A DNA stretch of 64,000 bases from Nitrospirota bacterium (GTDB lineage Bacteria; UBA2233), in the NCBI GenBank assembly GCA_011620345.1, contig WOZJ01000050.1:82343-146342 (forward strand). Direction: 5' to 3'. The position numbers and the translations under genes are program-made. Shown here one piece after another: positions 23,148-28,478 of the stretch (positions are counted from its first letter, which is position 1; each line of letters opens with the position of its first letter). The notes beneath the pieces were generated by a model. That model saw only the letters and a list, made by a program, of their open reading frames with translations, searched no databases and was not told the DNA's origin.

Positions 23148-23921
23148 TTGCCCATGGCCTGCCTTTCGCTGATCGAGGCGAAAGCCCTCCAAAAAGCACT
23201 TAGTGGATGGGTTTCGCTACGTACTTCCGTCTTTGCCAAAAACCTAAGGACGGTAGGGGGTGTAGACTGCGCCTATGCAACCATTAAAGGACGTCCGAGA
23301 GTATTCGCCTGTGCAGTCGTTCTGTCTTTCCCGATGCTTGAACTTCTTGAGGAGGCCTTTCACGCGAGACCCGTGACGTTCCCTTATATTCCTGGATACT
23401 TAAGCTTCCGGGAGCTTCCTTCGATGCTCGGGACGCTGACGAAGCTCAAAATCGTTCCCGATGTCTTGTTCGTCTCCGGACAGGGGGTCGCCCATCCTCG
23501 AGGTCTCGGGATCGCAAGCCACCTTGGAGTAGTCGCGGGTTTGGCAACGATCGGGATCGCCAAAAAGCCGCTCTTTGGGCTGTTTCAAGCGCCCTCCTTG
23601 GAAGCGGGGAGCGTTTCTGCCCTAACCCATCCGGACGATGGTTCCGTAATCGGGTTTGTCGTAAGGGCCAAAACGAACGTCAAGCCGCTTTATGTATCTC
23701 CAGGCCATAGGATGGATGCAGAAACGGCCGTTTCTATCGCGCTTCAGTGCGTCCAAAAGACTAAACTGCCCGTTCCACTTCACTTGGCAGATCGGCTTGC
23801 CGATCGGCTCAAGAAGGCGCTCCAAAGGGCAACGGGGCCTGACTCCGTTGAATGCTTGGAGCCAAACCCCGTCGAATATGTGCTGGCTAAAAACCCTTGG
23901 CTTAACCTTCTTGACCCATGA
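23148..23921 (+). CDS. nfi: Endonuclease V family protein with a changed active-site residue
   Basis: Endonuclease V nicks DNA near deoxyinosine. The 257 residues follow the family throughout: GGVDCAYA (Asp 40), PYIPGYLSFRELP (Glu 89), HPRGLGIASHLGV, GIAKKPLFG and VSPGHRMD. The third metal-binding Asp, in the family motif DGQGxAHPR, is Ser here (FVSGQGVAHPR, Ser 110; codon TCC at 23475-23477). That Asp is Asp 110 in the Thermotoga enzyme and is important for catalysis, so this protein may be weak, inactive or an inosine-binding relic. The rest is intact with no frameshift. The C-terminus is about 30 residues longer than the Thermotoga protein. It ends the plus-strand run. Confidence 0.85.
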   Translation: MPMACLSLIEAKALQKALSGWVSLRTSVFAKNLRTVGGVDCAYATIKGRPRVFACAVVLSFPMLELLEEAFHARPVTFPYIPGYLSFRELPSMLGTLTKLKIVPDVLFVSGQGVAHPRGLGIASHLGVVAGLATIGIAKKPLFGLFQAPSLEAGSVSALTHPDDGSVIGFVVRAKTNVKPLYVSPGHRMDAETAVSIALQCVQKTKLPVPLHLADRLADRLKKALQRATGPDSVECLEPNPVEYVLAKNPWLNLLDP

Positions 23922-23996: not shown

Positions 23997-25199
23997 TTAA
24001 GCATCATGCCGGCCGATGATGGCAACGCTGTTGATGTTCATGAACGGAAAGCCGCCCAGGTTATGCGTAAGGCCAAGCTTCGGGTTTTGGATCTGCCTTT
24101 TTCCAGCCCTGCCGAGCAGCTGGAGGTACATTTCATATAGCATCCGAATTCCGGAGGCACCGATGGGATGGCCGAAGCATTTCAAGCCTCCGTCGGGCTG
24201 GCAGGGAATCTTCCCGTTTATGTCGTAGAAGCCCTCCATGACATCCTTTGGCGCCTTTCCCCGTTCGGAGATGTGCAAATCCTCGTAGGTCACGAGCTCC
24301 GTGATCGAAAAGCAGTCATGTACCTCCATCATACTAACCTCCTCCCGGGGGTTGTTCACCCCGGCCTCTTTGTACGCAAGGGAGCTGGCCTTGGAGGTCG
24401 TTACAAAATGATCGAAGTCCCAGTTGTCGTACTGGAGCTCCTCGCCGCTGCTGATGGCAATTTGCAGGGCCTTGACCGTGACATAGTCTTTCTTGCCCAG
24501 GCTTCTTGCGATTTCCGGCGTAGTCACGATAGCCGCCGCGGCCCCGTCGCTTACGCCACAACAGTCATACAAGCCCAGCGGGTAGGCGATCATCGGGGAA
24601 TTTAAGATTTGATCCTCCGAAACCGGCCTTTGCAAGTGGGCCTTGGGGCTTAAAGAGCCGTTATAGTGGCTCTTCGCCGAAATATGGGCCATGGCCTTCT
24701 TCACCTCGTCCATGCTCAGGCCGTGCTTGGCGGCATAGCCCTGGGCCAGCATGGCGAACCCTCCTGGGGCGGTCATGTTGGGCATCGTAAAAAAGGCCAA
24801 AGAACCCCCCCCAATGCTCGGAAGGCCGCCGTAGCCCGTGTCTTTGAGCTTCTCGACCCCTAAGGCCAGGCAGATATCGTAGGCCCCGGAGGCTACCGCA
24901 TAGACGGCTCCACGGAACGCCTCGGTTCCGGTGGCGCAAAAATTCTCCGTTCGGGTAACCGGAATGTAGGGTAAATGCAAGGTTAAGGCCAAGGCCAACG
25001 CGCTTTTCCCGACGTTTACCTCATCGATGCAAGTGCCTTGCCAGGCCGCTTGAATCTCCTTGCGGTCAATGCCGGCATCCTCGATACATTCCTGGAACGC
25101 CTCGACGATGAGCTCCTCCGCCCCGACATCCCAGCGCTCGCCAAACTTTGTGCAACCCATTCCGATGATAGCTACCTTATCCTTGATTCCCGTTGCCAT
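23997..25199 (-). CDS. Thiolase-family protein (SCP-x / archaeal acetoacetyl-CoA thiolase type)
   Basis: The 400-residue protein has the acyl-accepting Cys in RTENFCATGTEAFRG near residue 88, the MEVHDCFSITEL motif and GHPIGASGIRM with the catalytic His. The final Cys motif of classical thiolases is replaced by LTHNLGGFP, as in SCP-2 thiolases and the archaeal enzyme that works with HMG-CoA synthase and DUF35. The ATG at 25199 has GGGGAGG upstream. The gene lies 14 bases after the HMGS-like/DUF35 fusion, so the two probably form one complex that cleaves or makes a 3-ketoacyl-CoA. BbsA/BbsB of anaerobic toluene breakdown is a parallel. Confidence 0.85.
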   Translation of the reverse strand: MATGIKDKVAIIGMGCTKFGERWDVGAEELIVEAFQECIEDAGIDRKEIQAAWQGTCIDEVNVGKSALALALTLHLPYIPVTRTENFCATGTEAFRGAVYAVASGAYDICLALGVEKLKDTGYGGLPSIGGGSLAFFTMPNMTAPGGFAMLAQGYAAKHGLSMDEVKKAMAHISAKSHYNGSLSPKAHLQRPVSEDQILNSPMIAYPLGLYDCCGVSDGAAAAIVTTPEIARSLGKKDYVTVKALQIAISSGEELQYDNWDFDHFVTTSKASSLAYKEAGVNNPREEVSMMEVHDCFSITELVTYEDLHISERGKAPKDVMEGFYDINGKIPCQPDGGLKCFGHPIGASGIRMLYEMYLQLLGRAGKRQIQNPKLGLTHNLGGFPFMNINSVAIIGRHDA

Positions 25200-25213
25200 T
25201 CTTTTGCCTCCCC

Positions 25214-26668
25214 TTAGGCTTCTTCTTGTGGAACGGCTTTCCAAAAGTACCCGTGAAAGCCTCGCTCTTTGTCGTACCAGCGCTTGCGGAAGGACATCTT
25301 TACCGTTTGACCGACCCCTAGCTTCTCCAGCTCGCAGTCTGTAAAGTCAAGGAGCGTCCTTCCTCCCCCCTCAAACTGCACCATCCCGTAAATTGCAGGA
25401 GGGTCGATAGAGACAGCCAGCAGATCCCCCGTAAACGAGATGATTTTGGCTTTTCTTCCCGAGAATTCGTAGTCTTCTTGCTCGTACACCGCATGGCATT
25501 CCGGCTTGACGCACACGTCCGTTTTTGGAAACTGGGGGGTGCCGCAGACCTTGCACCTTCCCCCGACCAACCCAAGTATCGCCTTTCTTTTTCGCCAAAG
25601 GACGCTCAATGGGGATTGGGCGCTGACTTCGGCCCGAATGCCGGTATCGGCGCCGAGACGGTCGCGGAACTGGCAGAACTTGGTGTAGCTTTCCATTTCC
25701 TTGCGTTTGGCCAAGGAGCCTTTGATGCCGTTCCTTGCCGGCAATTTTGCGATGTTCTCGGTAACCTCGAACCAAAAAGCGTCCGAGCCCTGGCCGAAGC
25801 TGGCCAAAAGGAGCTTGTCTCCGGGCTTGGCGTCCTCAAGGGCATGGATAAACATCGCCAAGGGGTGGGCCGTACCCATCTCGCCGCAGGTTTCGTGCAT
25901 GTTGCCCTGAACCATCTGGGGGCTGGCTCCGATCTTTTTGGCGATCGCCGCGTGCTCCCTGCTAAAGAAGCACGGGTAAATGACTTTTGAGAAATCGCCG
26001 ATGGAGAGGCTGTACTTCGAAAGAAGCCCGTTGATGGCTTCCGGCAGGATCTTCACATACCCCTCATCCCGAATCCAGCGTTCTTCCCAAATGTAGTCGT
26101 ACTTCTTGGCGGCATCCCGGTAATGGTCGGGGAAATCGTAGCTGACGGAATGGTATCCCTTGAGCTCGGCGATAACGCCCTCCTTACCCAAGAGCAAGGA
26201 CGCGGCCCCGTCCCCAAACCACATCTCATAGAAATAGCCTGCCTTGGCCTCCCGCTTGTCTGAAGCGGCCACGAGGATGCTGTTTTTGTTTCCGCTTTGA
26301 AGGCTTTCGAAGGCCGAAATCATCGCTGTAGTCCCGGCTTTTAATGAGCCCGTGAAATCGGCCGTGAGGATTTCGTTTTTTAAGTTGAGCGCTGTAGATG
26401 CGATGCCGGCGTTTTGCCGGTCTGCGTAAGGCAACGTGGTCGAGGCCAGGAACAGGGCATCAACCCCTGCCTTGTCCGTACCCTTCAGGCAGTCCCTGGC
26501 CGCCTCGACGCCCATGCTCAGGGCGTCTTCATCCCAGTTGCAGACCGACCTCTCGCCCTGGGCCACGGCAATGGTGGCCGGGGCAAACCATGCCATACTT
26601 TGGAACATGGTCATACGGGGTAGACGAAGTCTGGGAACATACCCCCCATAGGAAACGATTCCGATCAT
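25214..26668 (-). CDS. HMG-CoA-synthase-like protein fused to a DUF35 (zinc ribbon plus OB-fold) domain
   Basis: The 484-residue protein has a thiolase-fold HMGS-like part (residues 1 to about 350, IVSYGGYVPRLRLPR at the start, FGDGAASLLLG, ETCGEMGTAHPLAMF) and a C-terminal DUF35 part with a zinc ribbon CKVCGTPQFPKTDVCVKPEC near 375 and an OB fold. In true HMG-CoA synthase the motif is FACKAGT; here it is GSLKAGT, so Leu 109 replaces the catalytic Cys. The protein is therefore unlikely to make HMG-CoA and may act as a substrate-bridging partner for the adjacent thiolase. ATG 26668 has GGAGGAGG upstream. In archaea the three parts are separate subunits; here two are fused. Confidence 0.82.
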   Translation of the reverse strand: MIGIVSYGGYVPRLRLPRMTMFQSMAWFAPATIAVAQGERSVCNWDEDALSMGVEAARDCLKGTDKAGVDALFLASTTLPYADRQNAGIASTALNLKNEILTADFTGSLKAGTTAMISAFESLQSGNKNSILVAASDKREAKAGYFYEMWFGDGAASLLLGKEGVIAELKGYHSVSYDFPDHYRDAAKKYDYIWEERWIRDEGYVKILPEAINGLLSKYSLSIGDFSKVIYPCFFSREHAAIAKKIGASPQMVQGNMHETCGEMGTAHPLAMFIHALEDAKPGDKLLLASFGQGSDAFWFEVTENIAKLPARNGIKGSLAKRKEMESYTKFCQFRDRLGADTGIRAEVSAQSPLSVLWRKRKAILGLVGGRCKVCGTPQFPKTDVCVKPECHAVYEQEDYEFSGRKAKIISFTGDLLAVSIDPPAIYGMVQFEGGGRTLLDFTDCELEKLGVGQTVKMSFRKRWYDKERGFHGYFWKAVPQEEA

Positions 26669-27037: not shown

Positions 27038-28411
27038 TTAGAAGGCCAGCTGGAATCTACCCAGGACGAAGTCGTAATTGTTCTCGAACGAGCCGCCAAC
27101 ATGCGGAGAAAGCCCGGGGCCCGTCTTGTCGTACATTGCATGGCTGTAGGCCATGGAAAATTTCATGAATGGGTTTAAATACCAGTTGACCCCTACCTCG
27201 ATCGAATCGACCTGATTCCCGACGATATTGTCGGCCATGTCGAACCCCTCTCCCGGGGCGATTGCCATACCATTGCCGCCTACGTCGTCTACGTACATTT
27301 GCCCGTAGCGCGCGGCCAACTCTAAGGCCCCCCAGCCGCCGTTTCGGGGGTCAAAGTTCTTTTTGGGTTTCACGCCCTTGCTGTGCTGTTTTTTCTCTCC
27401 AGTCAAGATGTAGGTGCCCCCGACGTAAAACCCGCTGATGCCGATGTCGGAGAGATTGTTGGGCCTTTCTGCTTTTGTTTGGATGTACTCGCCCTTGAGA
27501 GACCCTGGCCCTTTTGTCCAGACGACATCGCCGCCAAGCCGGTAACGGGACCCGTTGCCCTCGATCCGGGGCATCACGTCCCTAAGCGAAGGATCGCGGA
27601 TAGACTTCATTTTGTAGGAATCCTGATCGCCCGCCGTGAAGTTAAACCCGACCTTCAGGTCTTTTATTGGAGTTTCGAGCCGCTTTAAAGGTGCGACTTC
27701 CAGCCTGCCAGCCACGTCCTGGCCGCCCACAGAGCCAGCCACCCCTGTATTCGCGCTGTTGTAGTAGCCGACTTTGTAGCCAAGCAATTCATCCAGTACT
27801 TTGCCGTAGAGCATGACCCCGTAGTTGTACTCCGGCGTCGTTGCGCGCGTGATCATAGATCGCTCGATCAAGTCGAGCCACTTGTCGGAAGAGAGCTCTT
27901 CCATCCCGAACGGCTCTTTGTCTTGGCCGATGCGGACGCTAAGCCAAGGAAATGCCACGTAGTCCATGTGGGCGTAAAGCACGCGAGAGTCGTTGTTGCC
28001 AAAGTCCGCAACAAAATTGAACAGCCAGTCTTTTAGTAGTTTGCCTTCAAGCTCTACGTAGGCCCTCCTTAGCTGGAAGCCGGAATCTTTGTCTCTGTCG
28101 TTCTTTTCGTAGATCCGGAAGTCTTCTTGGATTCGGCTTCCGAACTTGATCTCGAAGGCTTCGTCCTTGGTTCGGATGTAGGGACGCGTGTCCCAGCCGG
28201 CCTGGAGCGATTGAGATTGGCGCTCTTCCTCCCCTTTTGCTCGCACGGAGAACTCTTGGTACTCCTGCTCGGTCAAGATCCCCTTTTCTTTAAGACGGTC
28301 GAGAAGATCCTGAGTGACGGATGCTGCATCCCCCCGCCCGGAAAGAACGCCAAAGGCGATAAGGAGCGTAAAGAAAAAACGGCCTGTTTTCCAAGGCGAA
28401 ACAGTACGCAA
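27038..28411 (-). CDS. Outer-membrane porin, phosphate-selective porin O/P family
   Basis: The 457-residue protein starts with a signal peptide (about residues 8-30, FFFTLLIAFGVLSG), then a short helical region SVTQDLLDRLKEKGILTEQEYQEF typical of these porins, and a beta-barrel of alternating residues: FGSRIQEDFRIYEK, RRAYVELEGKLLKDWLFNFV, VRIGQDKEPFGMEEL. It ends in a Phe (LGRFQLAF), the outer-membrane insertion signal. The TTG at 28411 has AGGGGG 6 bases upstream and puts the signal peptide at the N-terminus; an ATG at 28450 adds 13 residues. It may bring phosphate or other anions to the Pst system encoded at the right end of the window. Selectivity cannot be read from sequence. Confidence 0.85.
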   Translation of the reverse strand: MRTVSPWKTGRFFFTLLIAFGVLSGRGDAASVTQDLLDRLKEKGILTEQEYQEFSVRAKGEEERQSQSLQAGWDTRPYIRTKDEAFEIKFGSRIQEDFRIYEKNDRDKDSGFQLRRAYVELEGKLLKDWLFNFVADFGNNDSRVLYAHMDYVAFPWLSVRIGQDKEPFGMEELSSDKWLDLIERSMITRATTPEYNYGVMLYGKVLDELLGYKVGYYNSANTGVAGSVGGQDVAGRLEVAPLKRLETPIKDLKVGFNFTAGDQDSYKMKSIRDPSLRDVMPRIEGNGSRYRLGGDVVWTKGPGSLKGEYIQTKAERPNNLSDIGISGFYVGGTYILTGEKKQHSKGVKPKKNFDPRNGGWGALELAARYGQMYVDDVGGNGMAIAPGEGFDMADNIVGNQVDSIEVGVNWYLNPFMKFSMAYSHAMYDKTGPGLSPHVGGSFENNYDFVLGRFQLAF

Positions 28412-28478
28412 GGCGTTCCCCCTTTCTTGCTGTATCCATCCTGAGGCCAATGAAAGCGAGACAAGGCATTTTCGAGGC

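Follow-up and report, generated by a model that had tools for sequence, protein, structure and literature searches.

What does a thiolase gain from a partner that has the fold of HMG-CoA synthase (HMGS) and lacks that enzyme's catalytic cysteine? The question is raised by two adjoining genes in the window (the whole 64,000-nucleotide stretch of Nitrospirota DNA analysed here), which I will call T, for an SCP2-type thiolase, and H, for an HMGS-like protein fused to a DUF35 domain (Table 1). In the operons of relatives the pair is associated with fatty-acid-, aromatic- and steroid-type degradation, which makes it probable that the partner serves the thiolase as a scaffold, structural and CoA-binding, and is not an enzyme of the cholesterol pathway. 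An earlier note on the same DNA had reported the pairing, the fusion and the missing cysteine; all three have held up, and the comparisons below extend them to a whole family.

The two genes and their active sites

H is preceded directly 5' of its start codon by the purine-rich, ribosome-binding-like GGAGGAGG, and T follows it immediately downstream. The HMGS-like half scores 193 bits against the NCBIfam HMGS profile PRK04262, below the 244-bit equivalog cut-off, while in the DUF35 half zf-ChsH2 exceeds its Pfam cut-off, OB_ChsH2_C falls slightly below it, and the DUF35 chain of the archaeal complex is matched with an E-value of 1e-12 (6esq_E). An AF2 model of H (pLDDT 77.9, pTM 0.83) finds its best solved fold match in 6esq_I (Z 41.9, rmsd 2.4, 331 residues), with PhlA at a Z of ~40. 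An H protein 97% identical to that of the window is carried by Nitrospirae bacterium UBA2233.

Table 1. Positions of the H and T genes and of their domains, motifs and active-site codons in the window.
Feature	Position	Strand	Description
H	25214..26668	minus	HMG-CoA-synthase-like domain fused to DUF35; 484 aa, ATG 26668, stop 25214
HMGS-like (thiolase-fold) domain	25634..26668	minus	residues 1-345; PRK04262 over 1-337, 6esq_I fold match over 1-340
Thr77 codon, at catalytic Glu place	26438..26440	minus	aligns with Glu82 of 6esq; Thr in 84/88 fused proteins
Leu109 codon, at catalytic Cys place	26342..26344	minus	aligns with Cys114 of archaeal HMGS 6esq
Pro232 codon, at catalytic His place	25973..25975	minus	aligns with His238 of 6esq; Pro in 72/88; His in true HMGS
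DUF35 domain	25226..25606	minus	residues 355-481; rubredoxin-like zinc ribbon + OB fold; Pfam zf-ChsH2, OB_ChsH2_C
Zinc-ribbon cysteines C372, C375, C386, C391	25496..25555	minus	invariant in 29/29 aligned homologues
H-T spacer	25200..25213	minus	14 nt, ribosome-binding-like GGGGAGG; bicistron (sequence reading)
T, SCP2-type thiolase	23997..25199	minus	400 aa, ATG 25199, stop 23997
T nucleophile Cys88	24936..24938	minus	Cys in 52/53 aligned thiolases
T HDCF motif (His294, Cys296)	24309..24320	minus	52/53 aligned thiolases
T GHPIG motif (His344)	24159..24173	minus	52/53 aligned thiolases

Of the features that define HMG-CoA synthase (EC 2.3.3.10), H possesses the fold and none of the catalytic Cys, Glu and His; the alignment with 6esq bears out the leucine that the earlier note had seen at the cysteine position, adds the losses of Glu and His, which it had not claimed, and places Glu263 of H opposite Asn270. 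Across 88 fused proteins, the window H included, position 109 is Leu in 53, Gln in 25, Ile in 4, Val in 2, Thr in 2 and Pro and Glu in 1 each, switching among the first five between close relatives, and is Cys in none, as it is in none of nine plasmid-borne relatives. Elsewhere the same column holds Cys in 6esq, 1tvz and two standalone HMGS, Gly in PhlA and Glu in MucA. Judged from these alignments, the loss of the catalytic site is a trait of the whole fused family and not chance.

T, on the other hand, retains everything expected of an SCP2-type beta-ketothiolase, namely the Cys nucleophile and the HDCF and GHP motifs, and the HDCF motif speaks for the reaction of a thiolase and against that of a retro-aldolase. 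It scores 683 bits (cut-off 403) against NCBIfam PRK06157, a family named acetyl-CoA acetyltransferase, and its closest solved chain is the thiolase 6esq_A (E 6e-54), to be compared with 5e-46 for BbsB and 2e-19 for PhlC.

Ancestry and gene neighbourhoods of the fused family

With the cysteine position marked on it, as the earlier note had proposed, the phylogeny gathers all Cys-less proteins into one clade apart from Cys-bearing HMGS in both of two trees (support 99/97 and 99/98), and the second tree, from which L020 with its very long branch in the first was left out, gives the DUF35-fused proteins a clade of their own within it (100/100), beside the PhlA/MucA group; the long branches of MucA and of the MvaS outgroup call for caution. 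Outside the fused family H is closest to PhlA and MucA, both of them HMGS-like subunits without the cysteine, and the simplest reading is that the catalytic site would have been lost once, before the fused and PhlA/MucA lineages split. A grouping of a paralog from the window's own genome with a protein of the oestradiol cluster (93/78) joins long branches and was not relied on.

Type I H occurs in 9/9 genomes of one small phylum and 3/3 of a second that includes Abyssobacteria, and H is found in 76 of 395 sampled genomes from the phylum of Desulfatitalea, a few of the 76 being of a more distant fused type. T lies directly after H in 48 of 52 loci. Of the four without T by the script's rule, one is at a contig end, one (L195) has T adjoining H in gene order though outside the rule, and two are unexplained; in L160 and L187, H stands away from a contig end with no T within 600 nt, and T may have been lost, replaced or placed elsewhere.

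The neighbours in relatives are what gives the pair a metabolic setting. In many sulphate reducers (Thermodesulfobacteriota) the H chain runs on into a short-chain dehydrogenase (SDR), usually together with SCP2, a fusion that suggests channelling; examples are Desulfatitalea, Desulfobacterium and the Olavius Delta 4 symbiont. Among solved proteins this SDR is closest to the (3R)-hydroxyacyl-CoA dehydrogenases of MFE-2 (2et6 and 1gz6, mammalian HSD17B4; E down to 1e-125). The gene before the fusion encodes MaoC (hydratase 2)-SDR-SCP2, the MFE-2 architecture, and a TetR regulator and acyl-CoA dehydrogenases (ACADs) are often found around these loci, linking hydratase 2, (3R)-dehydrogenase and SCP2 to H-T in relatives. 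Where H is unfused, single genes encode MaoC halves or a whole hydratase 2, SDR, ACAD, CoA-transferase III and an AMP (acyl-CoA) ligase. Of the genes up to four places from H, 21% belong to beta-oxidation, compared with 9% of those farther away in the same loci (Fisher p 3e-5, a value that is indicative only because the loci are related by descent). The earlier note had looked to such neighbours to reveal the substrate, which it left open: the ACADs, CoA-transferases, ligases and MFE-2-type genes tie the pair in relatives to MFE-2-type beta-oxidation and so leave the substrate class less open than the note had it.

Several further neighbours deserve mention. Most genomes of the small phylum (that of G021; L069, L073-L079) have a citrate synthase of eukaryote-like type (TIGR01793, above cut-off) as the divergent neighbour of H-T, and in eight loci from two phyla (L069 7612-7977, L077 8329-8682 and six more) the gene just downstream of T encodes a small conserved protein (108-153 aa) that bears a DTSCCGxGGC-like motif and matches no Pfam family; in the small phylum these neighbours make a different substrate, or an anabolic direction, possible. 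In several sulphate reducers T is followed by a protein of 103-117 aa (cluster c11; L168 10464-10796, where it has no Pfam match).

Plasmids provide a further set of relatives, and on annotated ones the gene after H is usually an acetyl-CoA acetyltransferase matching T. The order is SDR-MaoC-H-T in Sphingomonas paeninsulae and SDR-MaoC-H-T-ACAD-CoA-transferase in Variovorax paradoxus, while Tistrella and Sphingobium plasmids have ACAD, hydratase and ligase genes near H-T. Plasmid p3 of Novosphingobium ES2-1 carries ACAD-SDR-H-T-ECH-ECH, a lipid-transfer/OB-fold pair and a P450, adjoining VOC proteins and an indolepyruvate ferredoxin oxidoreductase, and this arrangement corresponds to that of the edc oestradiol cluster known from Novosphingobium tardaugens. 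There, as in the window, a thiolase (EGO55_13550) adjoins an 'HMG-CoA synthase' (EGO55_13555), which the authors left unassigned, judging an anabolic condensation senseless in that setting (PMC7793797); H of the edc type differs in being only ~30% identical to the window H. The ES2-1 counterpart, through which the comparison was made, is Cys-less and DUF35-fused and its thiolase has HDCF, so that the scaffold reading supplies an answer for EGO55_13555: it is likely a Cys-less thiolase partner, which would solve the unexplained 'HMG-CoA synthase' of the oestradiol cluster.

In the window itself the pair has unrelated neighbours and no beta-oxidation genes beside it: by sequence, H is preceded by a porin-like gene (27038-28450), and T is followed by one that resembles endonuclease V (23148-23921, plus strand). 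The genome encodes 12 acyl-CoA dehydrogenases above cut-off in 1.8 Mb, several thiolases by homology to T and, on other contigs, matches to MFE-2-like SDR, SCP2 and MaoC, all of which fits a beta-oxidising lifestyle. A second, more distant H-T pair is present in this genome (L067 391-7377, G000:C44) and in a sibling (L068, G001:C9), adjoining a MenB/BadI-like hydrolase, an acyl-CoA dehydrogenase and CoA-transferases; its H is weakly joined to the oestradiol-cluster protein in the tree.

Function of the pair and rival readings

I consider it probable that H and T make up one enzyme, a non-catalytic scaffold and a beta-ketothiolase, that performs the last step of R-specific (MFE-2-type) beta-oxidation. 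The proposal starts from what sequence comparison establishes, i.e., the lost residues of H, the intact thiolase site of T, the fusion and the operon context, and the absence of HMGS catalytic residues is what makes a scaffold the likely role of H. Acyl-CoA dehydrogenase, MaoC hydratase 2 and a short-chain (3R)-hydroxyacyl-CoA dehydrogenase would act in that order ahead of H-T, and in many sulphate reducers H would itself carry the preceding dehydrogenase, usually with SCP2. T would cleave (or, reversibly, make) a 3-oxoacyl-CoA; Cys88 would be the nucleophile, and Cys296, His294 and His344 would provide the acid/base and oxyanion functions. The HMGS-fold half of H would play the structural part in an assembly with T and DUF35 comparable to PhlABC or the archaeal complex, and the DUF35 half would bridge T and the HMGS half and help line the CoA site. 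The MFE-2 context points to thiolysis, of the 3-oxoacyl-CoA delivered by the R-specific hydratase and SDR, as the reaction; this direction, the physical complex, the scaffold role and the same use of the pair in the window organism are what I infer.

Could H nevertheless be a true HMG-CoA synthase whose catalytic cysteine has moved, as its HMGS-like fold and the genome annotation might have it? All three catalytic residues are lost, and the earlier remark that no mevalonate gene lies nearby now extends to the genome (96.8% complete), which has DXR of the MEP pathway and no match for HMG-CoA reductase, the single mevalonate enzyme searched. Another cysteine in the active site, which the earlier note had said would undo its view, has a candidate in Cys233 (25970-25972), adjoining the lost His position, and among 52 type I sequences from outside the Proteobacteria Pro232 and Cys233 are conserved to at least 97%. 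However, nine proteobacterial relatives have Ile, Leu, Ser, Glu, Ala or Thr at position 233, and eight of these nest inside the type I clade in the tree, which makes a family-wide substitute cysteine unlikely and rules out Cys233 as a family-wide replacement nucleophile; a true synthase has practically no chance of being the answer. It is a separate matter whether the HMGS half is dead at all, since Thr77, nearly fixed throughout the family, and Pro232, present in most members, mean that the dead pocket may serve a new job. A re-specified pocket (Thr77, Leu or Gln109, Pro232 and, in some, Cys233) might decarboxylate, as in KSQ domains where Cys has become Gln, or hold the acyl-CoA during its transfer from dehydrogenase to thiolase, and the conserved Pro232-Cys233 pair, the recurrent Gln109 and the fusion of H to the preceding dehydrogenase all favour such a role; I find it unlikely, given that close relatives differ freely at position 109 (Leu, Gln, Ile, Val or Thr), that Cys233 is missing in proteobacterial relatives having the same partner, and that PhlA has been published as a purely structural subunit. 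A related idea, tentative and rather unlikely, is that the re-specified HMGS pocket takes the 3-oxoacyl-CoA from the (3R)-dehydrogenase, fused or docked, and passes it via a shared CoA channel to the thiolase, with Thr77, Leu or Gln109 and Pro232 as the pocket residues; if true, this would be a substrate-channelling beta-oxidation machine made from a dead biosynthetic enzyme.

Other rivals concern what T does. A plain acetoacetyl-CoA thiolase of short-chain or ketone metabolism, with H as a mere stabiliser and no special substrate, would agree with the HDCF cysteine that T shares with the archaeal acetoacetyl-CoA thiolase, with the name of its NCBIfam family and with the pair standing alone in the window, but the company of MFE-2, MaoC and SCP2, a lipid-binding domain, that the pair keeps in relatives suggests acyl chains that are longer or branched and renders this quite unlikely. 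The pair might instead be a C-acyltransferase of the PhlABC/MucABC type, acylating an aromatic or enol acceptor with no cleavage of 3-oxoacyl-CoA, as the kinship of H to PhlA and MucA and the absence from PhlA of the same Cys and Glu (PMC6392133) would allow; that is highly improbable in light of the separate, well-supported clades of H and PhlA, the far closer relation of T to the archaeal acetoacetyl-CoA thiolase and BbsB than to PhlC, and neighbours that are beta-oxidation enzymes, among which no type-III PKS was seen.

Meaning and comparison with known systems

The names HMG-CoA synthase, KAS III and 'OB-fold protein' that the annotation gives to family members misplace them in the synthesis of isoprenoids or lipids. 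To see them instead as Cys-less scaffolds that serve beta-ketothiolases would correct the annotation, offer a direct hypothesis for the 'HMG-CoA synthase' of the oestradiol cluster, and predict that bacteria, commonly sulphate reducers, have a beta-oxidation system of the MFE-2/SCP2 kind whose dehydrogenase and thiolase are linked through a dead enzyme. In the open-access papers searched I found no description of the Cys-less family fused to DUF35, of its fusion with MFE-2 or of its pairing with a thiolase, and none of them dealt with DUF35 thiolases of sulphate reducers.

The window encodes together all three modules of a thiolase/DUF35/HMGS-fold assembly, and each has counterparts elsewhere. 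The archaeal thiolase/DUF35/HMG-CoA synthase complex (6ESQ, 6ET9) has the same three folds and supplies both the closest solved thiolase to T and the best fold match to H, but it keeps Cys114, Glu82 and His238 on a separate HMGS chain, which I take to be active and to feed mevalonate, whereas H has lost all three and unites two of the chains. The benzoylsuccinyl-CoA thiolase BbsAB (7PXP) likewise combines DUF35 with an SCP2-type thiolase, in anaerobic degradation; it has, to my knowledge, no HMGS-like chain, BbsB has HDAF, with Ala at the Cys position, where T has HDCF, and T reaches 157 bits against the BbsB equivalog (cut-off 750). Peroxisomal MFE-2 (HSD17B4) and the SCPx thiolase share hydratase 2, SDR and SCP2 domains and an SCP2-type thiolase with the systems described here, and I know of no DUF35 or HMGS-like partner in that eukaryotic set. 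The steroid aldolases Ltp2-ChsH2 and Sal-Shy resemble the pair in their use of DUF35, which ties a lyase of thiolase fold to a beta-oxidation enzyme upstream of it (PMC12329534). They are retro-aldolases that bear the motif YDHF/YDCY in place of the HDCF of T (PMC12329534), and they have no HMGS-like part.

The earlier note had seen in the locus a repurposed complex with the HMGS part as scaffold, akin in logic to BbsAB; the repurposing is supported, the scaffold remains the most likely role for a chain stripped of its catalytic residues, and the closest precedent is PhlABC/MucABC instead. PhlABC/CsATase (5M3K, 5MG5, 9SKH) and MucABC (9VBO) are, like H-T, built of Cys-less HMGS-like, DUF35 and thiolase-fold parts, with PhlA a solved example of a Cys-less HMGS-like subunit, and in PhlABC the thiolase subunit alone contacts the substrate and performs the catalysis, PhlA and PhlB being thought necessary for assembly (PMC6392133). 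They differ in having three separate genes, a biosynthetic C-acylation, a more distant thiolase in PhlC and a clade of their own, to which H does not belong although it too is Cys-less. The scaffold principle is thus already known from PhlABC, and what appears new is the fused family, its link to MFE-2 and the likely answer to the oestradiol-cluster 'HMG-CoA synthase'.
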